From Xiphophorus maculatus (Eukaryota > Chordata > Actinopteri > Cyprinodontiformes > Poeciliidae): a stretch of DNA of 64,000 nucleotides. Location: assembly GCF_002775205.1 (NCBI RefSeq), contig NC_036464.1, positions 2,448,501 through 2,512,500 on the forward strand, read 5' to 3'. Both the position numbers and the translations under genes were made by a program. Positions 1 to 58,362 of the stretch are shown here, in pieces. The notes beneath the pieces were generated by a model. It was given only the letters and a program-made list of their open reading frames with translations, did no database searches and had not been told where the DNA came from. Position 1 is the stretch's first letter, and the number at the start of each line of letters is the position of its first letter.

Positions 1-834
1 TAAACTATGAAGGCTTTTCACATGAAACCTGCAGGAAAAGCAGAACTTTCTATTAAAATAAAAGGTCAGGTGCAACTTATCTGTAAAGAAAAAGATTTTT
101 CCAAAGAAAATAAGTTAATAGCTGCAAACTTAAATAGCTGGAGTGTAACAGCACAATGTTTAAAATAACATGAGGCAACATGAAAATATGACTCGCATCG
201 TTAACTAGATTATTACTGACCTGCATTTGCTCTGATGTCTAATTTAATTTATATAAAAAGGGATTTAAGTCTTAAAAGAAGATTTATTAAAGCTCAATAT
301 CTATTATGTTCAGTTTTAGCTGCGTTATATTTAACAATTCAAACTTTTTCAAACATTTTTCTCAGAATGGAGAACCTGAAGGAGCCTGCTGCAAAATGAT
401 GTTTAAAAAGTTAAATCTGCATTTTGTTAAAATATGTAAGTGGTAGATCTGTATTAATTTATCCCACAATAAATGCAGTTTGTAGATTTTTGATACTTTT
501 GTTTGTTCAGAACCAAAACCATCAATGAAATAAAGACACAATCAGACTTTATTCAAATAAACGATGGAGTTTTTAGTTTTAGGTTCTCTCACTCAGTAAC
601 TACAGCAGCGTCATTTTTCTGTCTGTTTTTTAAGGTTTTATCGTTTTAATTTCATTCTAAAGTTAAGAAAAAAAATCTGGACTAGATTTAGTCGAATAAA
701 AAAAACCCCGCAAAATTTAATTCAACAATGATGCAAAAAAAATATTGATTTATGAATAATAAATGAATATTATCTTACCATACATGAGGATGACTCCTTC
801 AGCTCACATCCACACACCTGAGGAGATAATCCTT
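1..834. other. AT-rich intergenic DNA, no gene seen
   Basis: Strongly AT-rich non-coding sequence with many A and T runs. I see no open frame of useful length, no exon-like GC-rich block and no clear repeat family before the CA tract that follows. Confidence 0.6.
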
Positions 835-858
835 ACACACACACACACACACGCACAC

Positions 859-895
<37 letters not shown>
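835..895. repeat. (CA)n microsatellite
   Basis: About 60 bp of alternating AC with two GCAC interruptions. It is typical of fish intergenic DNA and likely length-polymorphic. Confidence 0.95.
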
Positions 896-898
<3 letters not shown>

Positions 899-1169
899 CA
901 TCATGGCTCCGCCCACTTTGGTGGAGTTACAGGATCTGAGAGGAAAAATGTTCTGAAAGCTGGAAATGTTTTCAGATTAATAAGGAAGAATTGATTAATT
1001 GATTTATTATTGAATCTTTTAAATTTGCAGAACCTTCTAGATGCTGACCTTCTAGACGGCATCGCCGTGGCAACGACCGCAGATCCACAGGAGCAGAAGA
1101 AGAAGAGGCGGTCCTAAAGTAGAAGAAGAAGAAAGGCTCTGTATTTAGTAAAAAATAAAAAGTGACAAA

Positions 1170-1660
1170 ACAATAAAACATTTAATATTTAAAAATGACA
1201 AAATCAGATGGACCAAATTACAGATTTATGTGGAAATATTGTATTTTTGAAGACCAAATTTAAAATACTAAAAACTCAGAGATGGGTAGTAAGTAGTCAA
1301 AATTACTCAATTACATTGGAAAAATATACATTTATTAGTATTTTTACTAAGCTGTATTTTTTTCTACTTTTACTTGAAATATTTTATTCTGAAGTATTTC
1401 TACTCTTATTTGAGTAAAATTTGTGGGTTTTCCACCCACTGAATGAAAAATTCACCAGACACAGAAACACCTGCAGGTTTTGTTGAAGTTTCATAAGATT
1501 TTTTATTGAAAGAAACTGATATGGAAATTTTGTCTTTTGCCTGATTTTGCTACTTATATGAAATTATTGTAACTTTGGTCCTGAAAATGTCAAAATTTCC
1601 ACTTAACTTCACATTTTGGTCCATCTGATTATGTATTTTTTAAACATTAAATGATTGATA
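1170..1660. repeat. Inverted-repeat-flanked AT-rich segment, likely MITE remnant
   Basis: The 16-mer AATCAGATGGACCAAA at 1202-1217 recurs as its exact reverse complement at 1616-1631. Imperfect complementarity continues outwards (AAACATTTAATATTTAAAAA against TTTTTTAAACATTAAATG). The interior and the DNA to about 1765 carry several TACTTTTACTTGAGTA-like motifs common in teleost non-autonomous DNA transposons. No coding capacity and no clear target duplication were found. The family assignment is inferred. Confidence 0.4.
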
Positions 1661-1904
1661 ATTTTATCAGTTACTCAGTATTTGCCTAAACTTTTTAATA
1701 AGTACTTTTTTACTCTTGAGTATTTTTTTACTGCTATTTGAAGTACTGCTTCTCTTACTCGAGTATAATTTCCTCTATCCGCCTGTTCTATAAGTTTTTA
1801 CTGCGTTTCTGCTCTTAAACCATCTTTGCGCGCAGGATTTATGCACAGACTTTGTTTTTAATGCACAAATTTTCTGTAACTTATGCTTCGTTGCCATGGT
1901 GATG

Positions 1905-2194
1905 ATGGTCTCAGTCGTGGCGTGCTTCTCTTCCTCCATCCACGGGTCGTACCGGTCCAGCAGCTGCATCAGAGGCGGCGCCTCGGGGATGAGCTGGCGG
2001 ATCACGACCCGGCTGATGTTGGGCGCCTGCTGCAGCAACAGGATGCTGAGGATCTGCGAGTGGATGCTGTGGAGCCGCAGGCTGAGCGCGGCTCCCAGCA
2101 GGCTGAGCGCGGCTTCCACCAACAAGGCAGAAATAGCAAGCGAACCGAAGCACACCACAAACAGAGAAAACAATCCAACATTAAAAACCTTCAC
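1905..2194 (-). other. Exon-like GC-rich open block, unidentified
   Basis: A GC-rich stretch stands out from AT-rich surroundings and is open on the minus strand (frame 2194 to 1775). Its product has a hydrophobic leucine/alanine-rich part followed by a polar part containing [18 protein letters not shown]. The composition and the low-complexity-free C-terminal half look like a real or recently decayed exon of a membrane-associated protein. I do not recognise the family. It lies just downstream of the pkmyt1 fragment but does not match the pkmyt1 tail as I know it. Splice sites are not clear, so it may be a single exon or a pseudogene piece. Confidence 0.3.
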
Positions 2195-2202
2195 CTTTAT
2201 TA

Positions 2203-2544
2203 AATGTAGAGTGGAACCAGTACTTGGCAGAAGGAGACCAGTGTCGGGATGGTCTCAGCCACTGTGCGGTAAATCCATCTGCGTTTCCTGACGCACGGCA
2301 GAGCGAGAAGCTGAGAGACGGTGGGTCTTTCATTTGGTTGTGGGGTCAAATTCATCCTCAGGACTGACTGAAGTTCAACAAACAGGCCTGGAAACACAGG
2401 AAGAAAAAACCTGGATAGATTCATTACTGGCAGACGGAGGGCGGATGTTACGCTGGTGAACTCTGAGGGAAGGTGGCGCTGTTGGAGCTGCTGCCATCCT
2501 TCACCGCCGCTATAGGCCAGCAGCTCCAGAATAGAAACACCCAA
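2203..2544 (-). pseudogene. pkmyt1 (Myt1 kinase) C-terminal kinase-lobe fragment
   Basis: On the minus strand two exon-like pieces read GVSILELL, then GGEGWQQLQQRHLPSEFTS, then after a 64-bp intron-like gap (2388-2451) ELQSVLRMNLTPQPNERPTV and LLALPCVRKRRW. This is the end of the kinase domain and the start of the membrane-association region of PKMYT1, the inhibitory kinase of Cdk1. It looks broken in three ways. The residues expected between LEL and GGEGW are deleted. Joining the best GT and AG sites puts the second exon out of frame by one base. None of the upstream kinase exons (glycine loop, HRD, DFG) is present before the next gene. A decayed duplicate is the best reading; the working pkmyt1 gene is expected elsewhere. 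Confidence 0.7.
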
Positions 2545-3154
2545 AATAAGAACATAAAAAGGAGTTTTTATTAAAATTTAACTTTAATAATAAACGTGTG
2601 TTTAAAGGTGACCCATTTAACAGGTTAGGATAAGTTTATGGTCTATACAAAACATGTTCATTACATTTTTTTCTTATCTTAGTAGAGTTTAAGGAAAATC
2701 ATTAGATAATGAGAATTTAGTCTGATCAGTTCTGCATATTTTGAGAATAATCCAAGTTCTGTCACTTTAAATCCTAATGAGCTGCTGTTGGCCACGCCCA
2801 CAATTCAATGTTTACACTCATGAAAATGGCTGCAAACTGTGGGTCGGTTTTCACTCCAGGTCCTTATGAAGAAGTTATTTGAAACTCACATTTATCTGCA
2901 AATGAAAACCAAAAGCAACCAGATGGTCGATAAAACATCTAAAAAATGAGGAAAGTCTCAGCACAGTGAATATTTAAACTGACAACAGATGTTGAGTTTT
3001 TCCGGACAGTTATGTACCGGTTCAATACGGGACGCACATTTAACAGCCAAATATGGGGCGACTCGACCTGATTCAGGGGAGCTGAGAAACAGTTTTATAG
3101 TGCTAAAGCTAAAGCTAAAACAGGGCTAGAATCGCCACTGGCATAAACAATATT
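2545..3154. other. Intergenic DNA, nothing recognised
   Basis: AT-rich non-coding sequence between the pkmyt1 fragment and the minisatellite. No exon, RNA gene or repeat family could be supported. Confidence 0.5.
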
Positions 3155-3545
3155 TTTTTAACTTCCGTTTTAACATAAACTACTTTGTACCTTAGTCCAA
3201 ATTTCATTTTAGTATAACATCCATTTTAACCTAAATTCACTTTTTGGCTTAAATTCCATTTTAGCATAAATTTTATTACAACATAACTTCCATTTTATCA
3301 TAAATCTCTTTAGTGAATAACTGAAATTGTGTCTCAGTGTAAATTCTGTGTAGCATAGAAACAGAATTTATGCTAACTGATGCTCAGACCAGGTTTTAAG
3401 CAAAAATGGAATTTAATGTAAATTAAGTGTTAGCATAAATTTCTAGAATAGCCAAAATTACATTTTTGGCTTAAATTACAACTTAGCACAAACTCTGTCA
3501 CCATAAGTTCTGTTTTTACATAAACTGTTATGAATAACTTTGTAG
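3155..3545. repeat. Degenerate minisatellite, about 17-bp period
   Basis: Variants of AATTCCATTTTAGCATA follow one another for almost 400 bp, with frequent small indels (CATTTTAGTATAAC, CCATTTTAGCATAAAT, TTCCATTTTATCATAAAT, AGTGTTAGCATAAAT). The array is too divergent for recent slippage, so it is an old tandem repeat. Confidence 0.65.
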
Positions 3546-3899
3546 CATACATACCTGGAAAATATATGGAACTGGTCTGAGAAACTATTGTGGACGTTTT
3601 TAACTTTATCCAATCGGTAACTTTGGTGCACGTCATGTTCCGCTATAAACCGGAAGTTGACTGTAAACAACCGTCCTCCGCTGCTGAGAAAAGAGCCGAG
3701 CCGAACCGAACCAGAAGGCTGTTCATTCAACGCTAATACAGACCAAACAGCTTCCTTCACTTCCTGCGCCGCCATTGCTAAACCTACACATAGACATAAT
3801 ATAAGGGTAGACGCCGCATTGGCCGCTCCGGCGCAGGAAATATGGCGGCCATCTTAGAGCGGTATACCCTCATACTTTGCTGAACCAAAACAACAGAAG

Positions 3900-5306
3900 A
3901 TGCCTCAGTTCTGCTCGGCTTATTCGTGTTTAAATCTACGAACTGTTGATGTCAGGGACCGGGGGATAACTTTTCACAAGTAAGAATGACACATTATTGT
4001 TAGTATGTTGTGAATGTAATATTACTGTACTGTATTTATGCCCACCAGCGAAATGACAGCAAATGTTAGCTATCGGTCTTCAGCCGGAGATTTGATGACA
4101 GGAATATGTTTCAAACAGGCCTACTCACAATTTCAGTAGCTTTGTTTAATTATCATTATCAACAAATTTTAATCAAATTTGGAGTTTTATGTTCTTTAAA
4201 ATATGAAGATCAAAAATAGTGAGTGTAACGTTTTTCTGAATGCTCAGCTTAAGCAGGCAACAAGGCTTCTTAGTTTCAACCGTTGCAAATAACATGGACC
4301 TCATTCGGACAATGTTTTTGTTTACACACTCCCAGATATCACGTTTTTGTTTTAAAGGTTTCCAAAAGATAAAGAGAGGAGGAAGAGGTGGGAAATAGCT
4401 TTGAGGAGGGATGGATTCACTGCAAGTGATTCATCTGTACTATGCAGAGAACATTTCAAAACGGAGGATTTTGACAAAACAGGTCAGATTGTCAGACTGA
4501 GAGCTGATGTGATACCATCAATTTTCAGCTTCCCAGTTCACCTTCAAAGAATAGGTGCATTATTAAAAGTTCATTAGCATTCATAAATGTGCATAATATT
4601 AGCCTTAAGGGATATATGTGTGTTTATGTACAGGTAGTATATACTATGAAGTCCATATTCATAAGGTTTTTACATTTAAGGTTGAAAACTACAGAACTAC
4701 AATAACCTCCACAAAAGCCCAAAGTAGTGAGTATGTGGCCTCTCAAGATGACCCAGAAACTTGTAGTTCAGACCTGCAACCTCAGTCTAATGATGTGAGT
4801 ATTTTTTCTATTGTAAATATCATATCATAATGGTCAAGATCATATTAAAATCTAAATTATTTTCTAACCCTCATGTTGAATGTTCTCACAAATAAAACAA
4901 ATAAAACCAACATAGTTGAAGACACACACAGTGCTGCTGTCGTCTGAAAGAAAGTGTGCCATAGTGATGTCTAAGTGATGGGTGATGTCCATCTCTCTGT
5001 CTTTAGGATCATTGCTATGCTTTGCCAGCTTCTCTTACCGCTGTCACTGCAAAACATAAGAGAGCGTTGGCAAGAGTGGAATATCTGGAGCGGGACAAGA
5101 AAAACACCATGGCCAGAGAGAAGAGGGCAAAGACCACAGCAAAGTCACTTTTGGGGGAATTGAGTGAAAAAAATCTCATTACTGAAGAACTCAAAGAACG
5201 GCTTGAATTCTACTCTGCATTTGTGCATTATATGTATATATATATATATATGTGTGTGTGTATGTATAAGGCTATTAGATTGTGTAAAAATGTAATGAAT
5301 ATGTAA
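3900..5306 (+). CDS. THAP-domain protein of P-like transposon, catalytic domain missing
   Basis: Four exons join in frame: 3900-3979, 4358-4554, 4634-4794 and 5007-5306, giving 245 aa. The first two encode a full THAP zinc finger: MPQFCSAYSC with Cys5 and Cys10, GITFHKFPKD, RKRWEIALRRDGF, then CREH for the last Cys and His, and a VIPSIF box near the end. Exon 4 gives a charged helical segment (ARVEYLERDKKNTMAREKR to ELKERLEFYS), probably the dimerising coiled coil of P-type transposases. The frame then runs into a TATATA/TGTG tract and stops, so the GTPase-like and RNase H parts are absent. The product could bind element ends and dimerise but not cut DNA, like the KP repressor of Drosophila (an inference). 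The acceptor at 4634 is the least certain junction. Confidence 0.7.
5227..5257. repeat. (TA)n(TG)n tract inside the transposon
   Basis: TATATATATATA passes into TGTGTGTGTATG directly after the coiled-coil codons. It replaces the expected continuation of the transposase and probably marks the internal deletion junction. Confidence 0.75.
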
Positions 5307-5708
5307 ATACTGTCACAACAGATAAGTATGTATGTGTGTATATATGAGATTATCGGAATATATACATAATGTGTGTGAATAAATTGCATCTTTGGTTGTA
5401 TCTTGCAAAACATGTCATACTTTAAAACATTGTATTCCACCAAAATTATTTAAATATGCTAAACTATACGTTCCTATACATGCAATTTTAATAGCTGTAT
5501 GCCTAAAATTTAATTATGTGACAATGTGATTACTATTCAGCGTGTTATGATCTATTAAATGCGCTGATCCTTTATTGTGCCTGCCAAATATATAAGGTTG
5601 AGTGGAGTGGTATACCGCTCCAAGATGGCCGCCCTAAATCTCGTCAGCTCCAATAGGCGAGAGCGGCCCATGAGGCGTCTATCCATATATTATGTCTATG
5701 AACCTACA

Positions 5709-6090
5709 GGCTACCAATCTAAAGCGGCGCAGGAAATCAACGTCATCGTCCGTAACTCAGTCTGTTCACTGATTGGCCCAGAAGAAATCAAAATCAAAGA
5801 TCTTTGATGGATTTAGTATTCAAAAATTACCTAAGATGGCAAAAAGGTTAAGCAAAGTTAAAATGTTGGCATTTTAAAAAATAAAAAGAAAAAAAAATCA
5901 AACTTACAAAATTAAATCAGGCGAAAGAAAAAAAAATTGTCCAAATCTATTATTTTTTTTCCAATATAACTGCAGATTTATGTCTTTTGATCTTTTGGTT
6001 GAAACAAACGTCATTCAGTGAAGTTACTGCAATCTAAAAAATAACATTAAACACAGACTTTAAATAGTCTCAGTGTAAAATGAATCAAGC
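5709..6090. other. Gap between transposon and kif11 3' end
   Basis: The first 30 bp complete a palindrome split by the transposon (see findings). The rest is A/T-rich DNA without coding signs, leading to the kif11 poly(A) site. Confidence 0.5.
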
Positions 6091-6161: not shown

Positions 6162-16625
<10,464 letters not shown>

Positions 16626-23881: not shown

Positions 23882-25129
<1,248 letters not shown>

Positions 25130-29809: not shown

Positions 29810-30571
29810 TCACAGGTGCACCTCCGGGCCGGGGTACGGCTCCCCTCCGCACCAGAAATGAGGCGGCTGGGAGATCTCCATGAGCCAGACCTCCTTCTCT
29901 TTCCCGTCCGCGGAGTTCGGTTCCGAATTGGTGAGAACCTGGTAGTAGTGGCAGTCCCTGCCGTCGTCCGGGTCATACGGCGGGGCCAGAATATCCATGA
30001 ACGCCGTCGGCCCGTCCACGGCGTCGATCTGGTGAAGGTTGTCCCGCTCCGGAGAGAGGACGCAGGGGCCGCTCTCCTCCGTGTATTCGGCGGAGGACCG
30101 CAGCACGGAGCGCCGCAGAGCGCCCATCTGCGCCGGGGGCAGCGGCGGCGCCGCCTGCGTCCCGCCGCCGTGCCGCTCCAGCCGGTCGAAGCAGCTGATC
30201 CTGACCTTCCCGTAGAGGACTTTGAGCACGCCGTGCATGCCCGGATGGTCGTGCAGCGGGATGGAGGCGCCGCTTTTCAGCAGGAACACCCCCATGCTGA
30301 ACTGGTCCGTCTCGCAGATGTGCATGTAGGTGACCGGCGGCACTCCGTGGTGGTACGGGTTCGGCCGCGGCGCGCTGTCCTCGGCTCTCCGCGGGACGAG
30401 CTTCAGGTCAGCCGCTCTGACTTCCGTCATCAGGCTTTTCAGCTTACCGTGGTTCTCTACGAAGGACTTTCCGCTCTCCTCACCGAGTCCTGGTGGGTTC
30501 CTGAAGGTGACCAGAGCCTGTCGGGCTATTCTCTGGACGATGGAAGTCATGGTACTGTCGCTTGGCATCAT
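29810..30571 (-). CDS. ado: 2-aminoethanethiol (cysteamine) dioxygenase
   Basis: Non-haem Fe(II) thiol dioxygenase that oxidises cysteamine to hypotaurine and N-terminal cysteines of proteins such as RGS4/5, acting as an oxygen sensor in the cytosol. A single intronless frame gives 253 aa (human 270). The iron ligands are His107 and His109 in IPLHDHPGMHG and His180 in DNLHQIDAV. Cys207 and Tyr209 in RDCHYY match the human Cys220-Tyr222 cross-link pair. The ends are conserved too (QRIARQA near the start, FWCGGEPYPGP near the end). Two consecutive Met codons start the frame; the second aligns with the human start. It lies beside egr2 as in other vertebrates. The local GC content is high, with a CpG island over the gene. 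Confidence 0.97.
   Translation of the reverse strand: MMPSDSTMTSIVQRIARQALVTFRNPPGLGEESGKSFVENHGKLKSLMTEVRAADLKLVPRRAEDSAPRPNPYHHGVPPVTYMHICETDQFSMGVFLLKSGASIPLHDHPGMHGVLKVLYGKVRISCFDRLERHGGGTQAAPPLPPAQMGALRRSVLRSSAEYTEESGPCVLSPERDNLHQIDAVDGPTAFMDILAPPYDPDDGRDCHYYQVLTNSEPNSADGKEKEVWLMEISQPPHFWCGGEPYPGPEVHL

Positions 30572-56349: not shown

Positions 56350-58362
<2,013 letters not shown>

Follow-up and report, generated by a model that had tools for sequence, protein, structure and literature searches.

The window, by which we mean the whole stretch of 64,000 nucleotides analysed here (C22:2448501-2512500 of the 704-Mb assembly of Xiphophorus maculatus), contains a short P-type transposon that is bounded by an exact 8-bp duplication and encloses a predicted gene of four exons. 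Its features are as follows.

3781..3788, no strand: left copy of the 8-bp target-site duplication AACCTACA, an exact match to the right copy
3789..5700, plus strand: P-type element of 1,912 bp, a form with an internal deletion when compared with the long copy L026 (inverted-repeat and alignment data)
3789..3828, plus strand: left terminal inverted repeat, 40 bp (inverted-pair comparison and alignment)
3829..3840, plus strand: left spacer between terminal and subterminal repeat, 12 bp (position of the inner repeat conserved)
3841..3868, plus strand: left subterminal inverted repeat, 28 bp, a candidate transposase binding site
3900..3979, plus strand: predicted exon 1, first part of the THAP domain (gene model, Pfam)
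4358..4554, plus strand: predicted exon 2, second part of the THAP domain (gene model, Pfam)
4634..4794, plus strand: predicted exon 3, whose 5' border is the least certain part of the gene model
5007..5306, plus strand: predicted exon 4, a charged, leucine-rich segment (suggested coiled coil) and a tail derived from the deletion junction and an AT-rich repeat, with a TAA stop (gene model)
5217..5218, plus strand: deletion junction; identity with L026 ends at 5217 and filler starting CATTTGTGCATT comes next, which among the 18 young loci searched recurs in L023 only
5609..5636, minus strand: right subterminal inverted repeat, 28 bp (inverted-pair comparison)
5637..5660, minus strand: right spacer between subterminal and terminal repeat, 24 bp (position of the inner repeat)
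5661..5700, minus strand: right terminal inverted repeat, 40 bp (inverted-pair comparison)
5701..5708, no strand: right copy of the 8-bp target-site duplication AACCTACA, an exact match to the left copy

The window also holds a C2H2 zinc-finger frame (23975-25126), a PCO_ADO frame of the cysteamine dioxygenase type (29810-30571) and a forkhead frame (57079-58359). The first two are reminiscent of EGR2 and ADO, which are neighbours in vertebrates.

Ends and predicted gene of the window copy

The element ends begin with CATAGACATAATATAAGG and each has a 28-bp inner repeat nearby. The terminal arms (3789-3828 and 5661-5700) are 90% complementary over 40 nt, and the second inverted pair (3841-3868 and 5609-5636) is 93% complementary over 28 nt. 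Local alignment of the two ends scores 88, compared with a maximum of 27 in 500 shuffles and of 31 when pairs of equal spacing were placed at random in the window 2,985 times. Within the window, the first 25 bp of the element end match only at the two ends when up to 3 mismatches are allowed. The inverted ends and the exact duplication described by the sequence-only reading, an earlier interpretation of this DNA, are thus borne out, and its coordinates, 3781..5708 with the two duplications included, are exact. With an 8-bp duplication, terminal inverted repeats and a THAP domain the window copy shows the marks of the P-element superfamily; the RNase H-like catalytic domain with its GTP-binding insertion is not in the window copy and is found in L026, a long member of the family. 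A search with the terminal sequence in viral, bacterial and archaeal contigs gave no match, as expected for an animal element. Four matches to the pattern AANATGGCNGCC, which resembles a YY1 site, occur in the window, where 0.07 would be expected, and three of the four fall in the inner repeats; matches lie at 3839-3855, 5622-5633 and 13952-13963. In the inner repeats the pattern may belong to the promoter that drives the transposase gene.

The three introns of the gene model are all of the GT-AG type, and the predicted splice product is a single open frame of 245 aa. The internal THAP gene proposed earlier is real in the sense that Pfam recognizes the domain in this predicted product (E 4e-16, 87 of 87 model positions), the domain itself being split by introns. 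Exon 4 may form a coiled coil, as judged by eye from its sequence. Compared by eye, 216 of the 245 residues correspond to the N-terminus of the transposase, with four differences from L026. The identity between window copy and long copy stops at the last base of the long copy's exon 4 (window 5217), so that the splice donor of the long form is lost in the window copy. A second locus, L023, has a frame of the same plan that is open over 250 aa and ends in another repeat-derived tail.

By sequence, the solved structures closest to the THAP domain of the window copy are the THAP domains of THAP2 and THAP1, and host genomes carry many THAP genes. One could therefore imagine a domesticated host THAP gene that happens to lie between chance or unrelated inverted repeats. 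However, the same gene part is found together with the same ends at different sites with different duplications, and in L026 it runs on into a P transposase. The family of copies rules out a stand-alone host THAP gene, and we regard the idea of domestication as practically untenable.

The young family and its long member

We searched the same genome with both element ends. Of 65 left-end candidates 40 were scored, of which 15, the window copy included, matched at 97% or more; of the 40 scored among 127 right-end candidates, 17 matched at 98% or more. The union of these matches together with one left match at 96% constitutes the young set L011-L028 (L011 being the window copy) and is a lower bound. 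A search for further copies, which had been proposed as a check on the sequence-only reading, thus returned at least 18 young loci, and both ends are present in 14. Three of these (L014, L015 and L018) have the same flanks and the same duplication and therefore represent one insertion that was later duplicated with its surroundings, which reduces the 14 two-ended loci to 12 insertions. The identical flanks of L018 and its copies L014 and L015 are found on C13 and on two short contigs, C36 and C35. The 8-bp duplication is exact in 11 of the 12 insertions, and in L020 six of the eight bases agree. The mean pairwise difference amounts to 0.57% in the part kept by all 12 insertions (66 pairs) and to 0.60% in the first 1,313 bp (28 pairs covering it). 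Neutral rates are a few 1e-9 per site per year, which would place the age of the family, uncalibrated, of the order of a million years or less.

The remaining loci are incomplete. L012 (C14, ~21.327 Mb) ends in an assembly gap (N); about 2.1 kb of other DNA, its border marked by about 5 repeated bases, interrupts this copy, and the gap follows. L027 has its left end cut to ~14 bp and the exact 8-bp duplication GGCGCGGC on both sides, and L028 consists of the last 348 bp only. L012 and L027 could have been two pieces of a single element that a 3.8-Mb inversion on C14 had separated; we rejected this because L012 enters the assembly gap and L027 has its own GGCGCGGC duplication on both sides. Older ends, roughly 83-86% identical, occur on C13 (~6.3-8.15 Mb), C35, C36 and C96, many of them at repeated intervals, and are apparently carried in a large duplicated array.

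Within 500 bp around the 12 insertion sites the observed/expected CpG ratio averages 0.78, compared with 0.46 in controls (three 500-bp stretches per site, 3.4 to 5.3 kb away on one side). CpG is higher at the site in 11 of 12 cases (one-sided Wilcoxon p 0.0024); against random places in the window only, p is 0.002 for CpG and G+C does not differ. The fly P element favours promoter-like DNA, and the CpG excess would fit a similar taste in this family. A palindromic target consensus is at best weak among the 12 sites. The window copy is flanked by inverted host copies of a GCGGCGCAGGAA-type sequence (3756-3772 and 5724-5740), one of which has 13 nt in common with the left spacer of the element (3829-3841). 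L021 sits in an array of GCGGCCAT spaced at 35 bp, and 14 nt of its flank recur in the inner repeat of the element; in the remaining 10 insertions the sequence in common with the element is 7 to 9 nt long. Such sharing may hint at a choice of targets by element-like DNA.

L026 (C24, ~13.15 Mb) is 5,376 bp long, starting at element position 41 and reaching the right end. Identity between L026 and the window copy amounts to 99.1% in the left part (1,389 bp) and to 97.1% in the right part (478 bp). Ten exons with GT-AG introns are predicted to encode an open frame of 883 aa, whose exons match the TNP-like RNaseH_N domain (6.7e-48), the GTP-binding insertion (2.4e-29) and RNaseH_C, the latter split over two exons with 5.4e-07 for the first. 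In a phmmer comparison the frame matches the Drosophila P transposase (6p5a) with E 1.7e-31. Its D, D and E align with the aspartates of AFDEM and VSDLG and the glutamate of DIVEHFF in the fly protein, which we take to be the catalytic residues of fly P transposase. For the zebrafish homolog zfTHAP9 the available text of PMC10983969 gives the catalytic residues as D347, D434 and E679. These matches also decide about a hAT-type element, with which the 8-bp duplication alone would be compatible since such duplications occur in hAT too: the RNase H and GTP-binding domains of L026 are of the P/THAP9 type, and together with the match to the Drosophila P transposase they rule out hAT membership, to which we attach next to no likelihood.

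A full-length partner with GTPase and RNase H domains had been expected from the sequence alone. L026 provides the THAP, RNase H and GTP-binding domains but not the left 40-bp terminal repeat, its position 41 abutting other DNA. In this adjoining DNA an opposite-strand frame matches an endonuclease family below the Pfam cut-off, and from this sequence we would guess that it is a LINE. The missing repeat was not found in the next 9.9 kb upstream (best 20 mismatches in 40) or in the adjacent 2 kb. When the genome was searched with the RNase H exon (220 aa), 16 matches came up; after L026 the deleted copy L015 ranked first (173 aa at 99%), and the others cover less. We found no complete autonomous copy with both ends in the assembly, and L026 is the only long copy that we found. 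Since it is devoid of the left 40-bp repeat, the assembly's source of transposase has probably lost its mobility. The absence of a complete copy bears on the present activity of the family, which we infer, and not on its kinship with the P superfamily.

Deletion derivatives and their movement

All 12 insertions are deletion derivatives of the long form. In long-copy coordinates the deleted stretches are those listed below, where the right borders near 4900 are rough and lie in an AT-rich repeat.

L013, L016 and L020: ~695-3950
L017: ~419-3263
L025: ~1273-3971
L019: ~1911-4904
L022: ~1811-4732
L014: ~2262-4936
L021: ~1482-4947
L024: ~1384-4895
L023: ~1389-4895
Window copy: ~1389-4899

Junction microhomology and filler are known in the P element from interrupted gap repair. 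Several junctions of the present family have short shared bases or filler and look, by analogy, as if left by the same process. The window copy and L023 have a common filler that occurs in no other of the 18 young loci, and their duplications differ (AACCTACA and GTTGCAAT). L013, L016 and L020 have one junction at three sites with different flanks and differ at 2 to 5 positions in ~2,170 bases. Because junctions recur at different sites, the deleted elements moved after the deletion had arisen, and because copies without catalytic domains occupy several sites, they were moved by transposase made elsewhere. An origin of the shared junctions by segmental duplication is disfavoured since duplications and flanks differ. 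The grouping of the window copy, L021, L023 and L024 as products of one deletion was rejected, as the junction is common to the window copy and L023 only. The window copy is a mosaic: three of its 14 differences from L023 agree with L021 and/or L022, a pattern that fits gene conversion or recombination.

The window feature is therefore best read as an internally deleted P-type transposon that was moved in trans by the transposase of its family, and we estimate the probability of this whole reading at about 93%. A non-autonomous P-superfamily DNA transposon would have arisen by internal deletion of ~3.5 kb from a ~5.4-kb element of its own family and would have entered the window site by cut-and-paste with formation of the 8-bp duplication. 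The THAP9-like transposase of the family would have acted in trans, its source being L026 or possibly a sister copy that was lost or is missing from the assembly. If made, the 245-aa THAP and coiled-coil protein could bind the element ends and dampen transposition. Direct support for this reading comes from the two ends and their duplication, from the young family with the open frame of L026, and from the post-deletion movement of the deleted forms. Against it stand the missing complete autonomous copy, the L020 duplication with six of eight bases and the mosaic structure of the window copy. The gene model and the expression of the transposase are predicted. Recent mobilisation by an autonomous relative, as had been suggested from the clean borders, agrees with the junctions shared across sites, whereas the autonomous relative itself is not represented by a complete copy in the assembly.

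The deletion form might also have been kept and spread because its THAP and coiled-coil protein represses the family, as a natural repressor of the KP type. According to the available text on Drosophila, KP is missing P bases 809-2561 and encodes 207 aa, of which 199 are the start of the transposase; its product binds P elements and represses (PMC4938643). The predicted window protein resembles it in that 216 N-terminal residues of the transposase, compared with about 200 in KP (PMC4938643), are followed by a short new tail. The frame of 245 aa comprises the DNA-binding and dimerisation parts only (THAP by Pfam, coiled coil by eye) and is open in both copies sharing the junction, the window copy and L023. 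However, five of the 12 insertions (L013, L016, L017, L020 and L025) break before the end of exon 4, and the junction of L013, L016 and L020, which leaves no coiled coil, is found at more sites than the window junction (three vs two). The coding changes in the THAP frame among the window copy and 15 other loci (8 non-synonymous, 5 synonymous, 1 stop and 4 gapped columns) show no clear constraint and are too few to decide on selection. Overall, we consider it rather unlikely that repression accounts for the maintenance and spread of this form; the transposon moved in trans remains our preferred reading.

Unlike ends and known P systems

In the window copy 12 bp lie between the 40-bp and 28-bp repeats on the left and 24 bp on the right, and two types of spacer, one for each end, are conserved. 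The inner repeat contains a CATCTT box, whose distance from the element end is 62 in all 15 young left ends and 74 in 16 of the 17 young right ends, L018 having it at 73; these young ends share a recent ancestor. In older relatives (~75-87% identical) the box is found at 61-63 in five of five left ends and at 69, 70, 73, 73, 74 and 74 in six of seven right ends; the remaining one (64) belongs to L049 and has a left-type interior. This count left out ends with no recognisable start (left L030 and L052; right L041, L042, L046 and L051, of which L041 and L042 are in one array and not independent), L045, whose location coincides with that of L029, and L053-L056, which yielded no end. For Drosophila P, the accessible part of a review gives spacings of 9 bp (left end) and 21 bp (right end) and likens them to the 12/23 signals of V(D)J recombination (PMC7776569). 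The 12-bp difference between the ends that characterizes the fly element (9/21) is thus found here as well (12/24). The two values may have to be assigned to the fly ends the other way round. The conserved 28-bp subterminal repeats are candidate transposase binding sites; lying 12 bp inside the terminal repeat on the left and 24 bp on the right, they would allow unlike ends to be paired as proposed for Drosophila P. Among the literature matches listed, titles and the beginnings of abstracts name no such spacing in a vertebrate P element.

The family shares with Drosophila P and KP the 8-bp duplications, a transposase composed of THAP domain, dimerisation region and RNase H with GTP-binding insertion, and internally deleted derivatives. 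In contrast, its terminal repeats are 40 imperfect bp rather than 31 perfect bp and its gene is longer, with ten predicted exons; its inner repeats are 28 bp long and are candidate sites, and a KP-like repression would apply by analogy. P-superfamily elements had been called rare in vertebrates, which overstates their rarity in fish: at least 50 Pdre sequences are reported from zebrafish (PMC10983969). In the available text of that study, Pdre2 with zfTHAP9 is likewise a fish P-like element: its duplications are 8 bp long, its transposase is of the THAP9 type and some of its copies carry internal deletions. Its terminal repeats, CATACCTGTCAAC, however measure 13 bp and its subterminal repeats 12 bp (PMC10983969). 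The terminal repeat CATACCTGTCAAC is not present in the window element, agreement being limited to the first CATA. The spacers of Pdre2 are ~400 bp long in the accessible part of the review (PMC7776569), compared with 12 and 24 bp in the window element. The zebrafish study also reports that no transposase-type motif was found in Pdre2 and that zfTHAP9 supported excision only and no transposition (PMC10983969). In Anopheles gambiae, as far as the available text goes, P elements and P-MITEs also form subfamilies of differing age, with short relatives that have long-form ends and 8-bp duplications, whereas the cores of the P-MITEs are unrelated to P and their copies number 44 to 571 (PMC1562414). 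The young short forms described here are plain internal deletions, with about a dozen insertions. The family is a new P member, P-like elements being already known in zebrafish; it may already be catalogued in Repbase or by Hammer et al. 2005.

As a tentative proposal, about which we are more doubtful than confident, a vertebrate P family pairs unlike ends by a 12/24 rule, with the same 12-bp offset as fly P (9/21) and recalling V(D)J (12/23), this being an ancient property of P transposases in general, and the family described here is dying out under its own deletion products, with an open transposase frame left in a copy that has lost one terminal repeat and THAP-only copies acting as KP-type repressors. 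In this family the inner repeats of the two ends are clearly delimited and offset by 12 bp, a dozen insertions are recent, and the transposase frame of one copy is open. With it, the generality of pairing unlike ends by spacing among P transposases becomes testable in a vertebrate element, as does the notion that deletion derivatives which keep the DNA-binding part hold their family down. The 12-bp offset of the ends and the KP-like frame are worth experiment.
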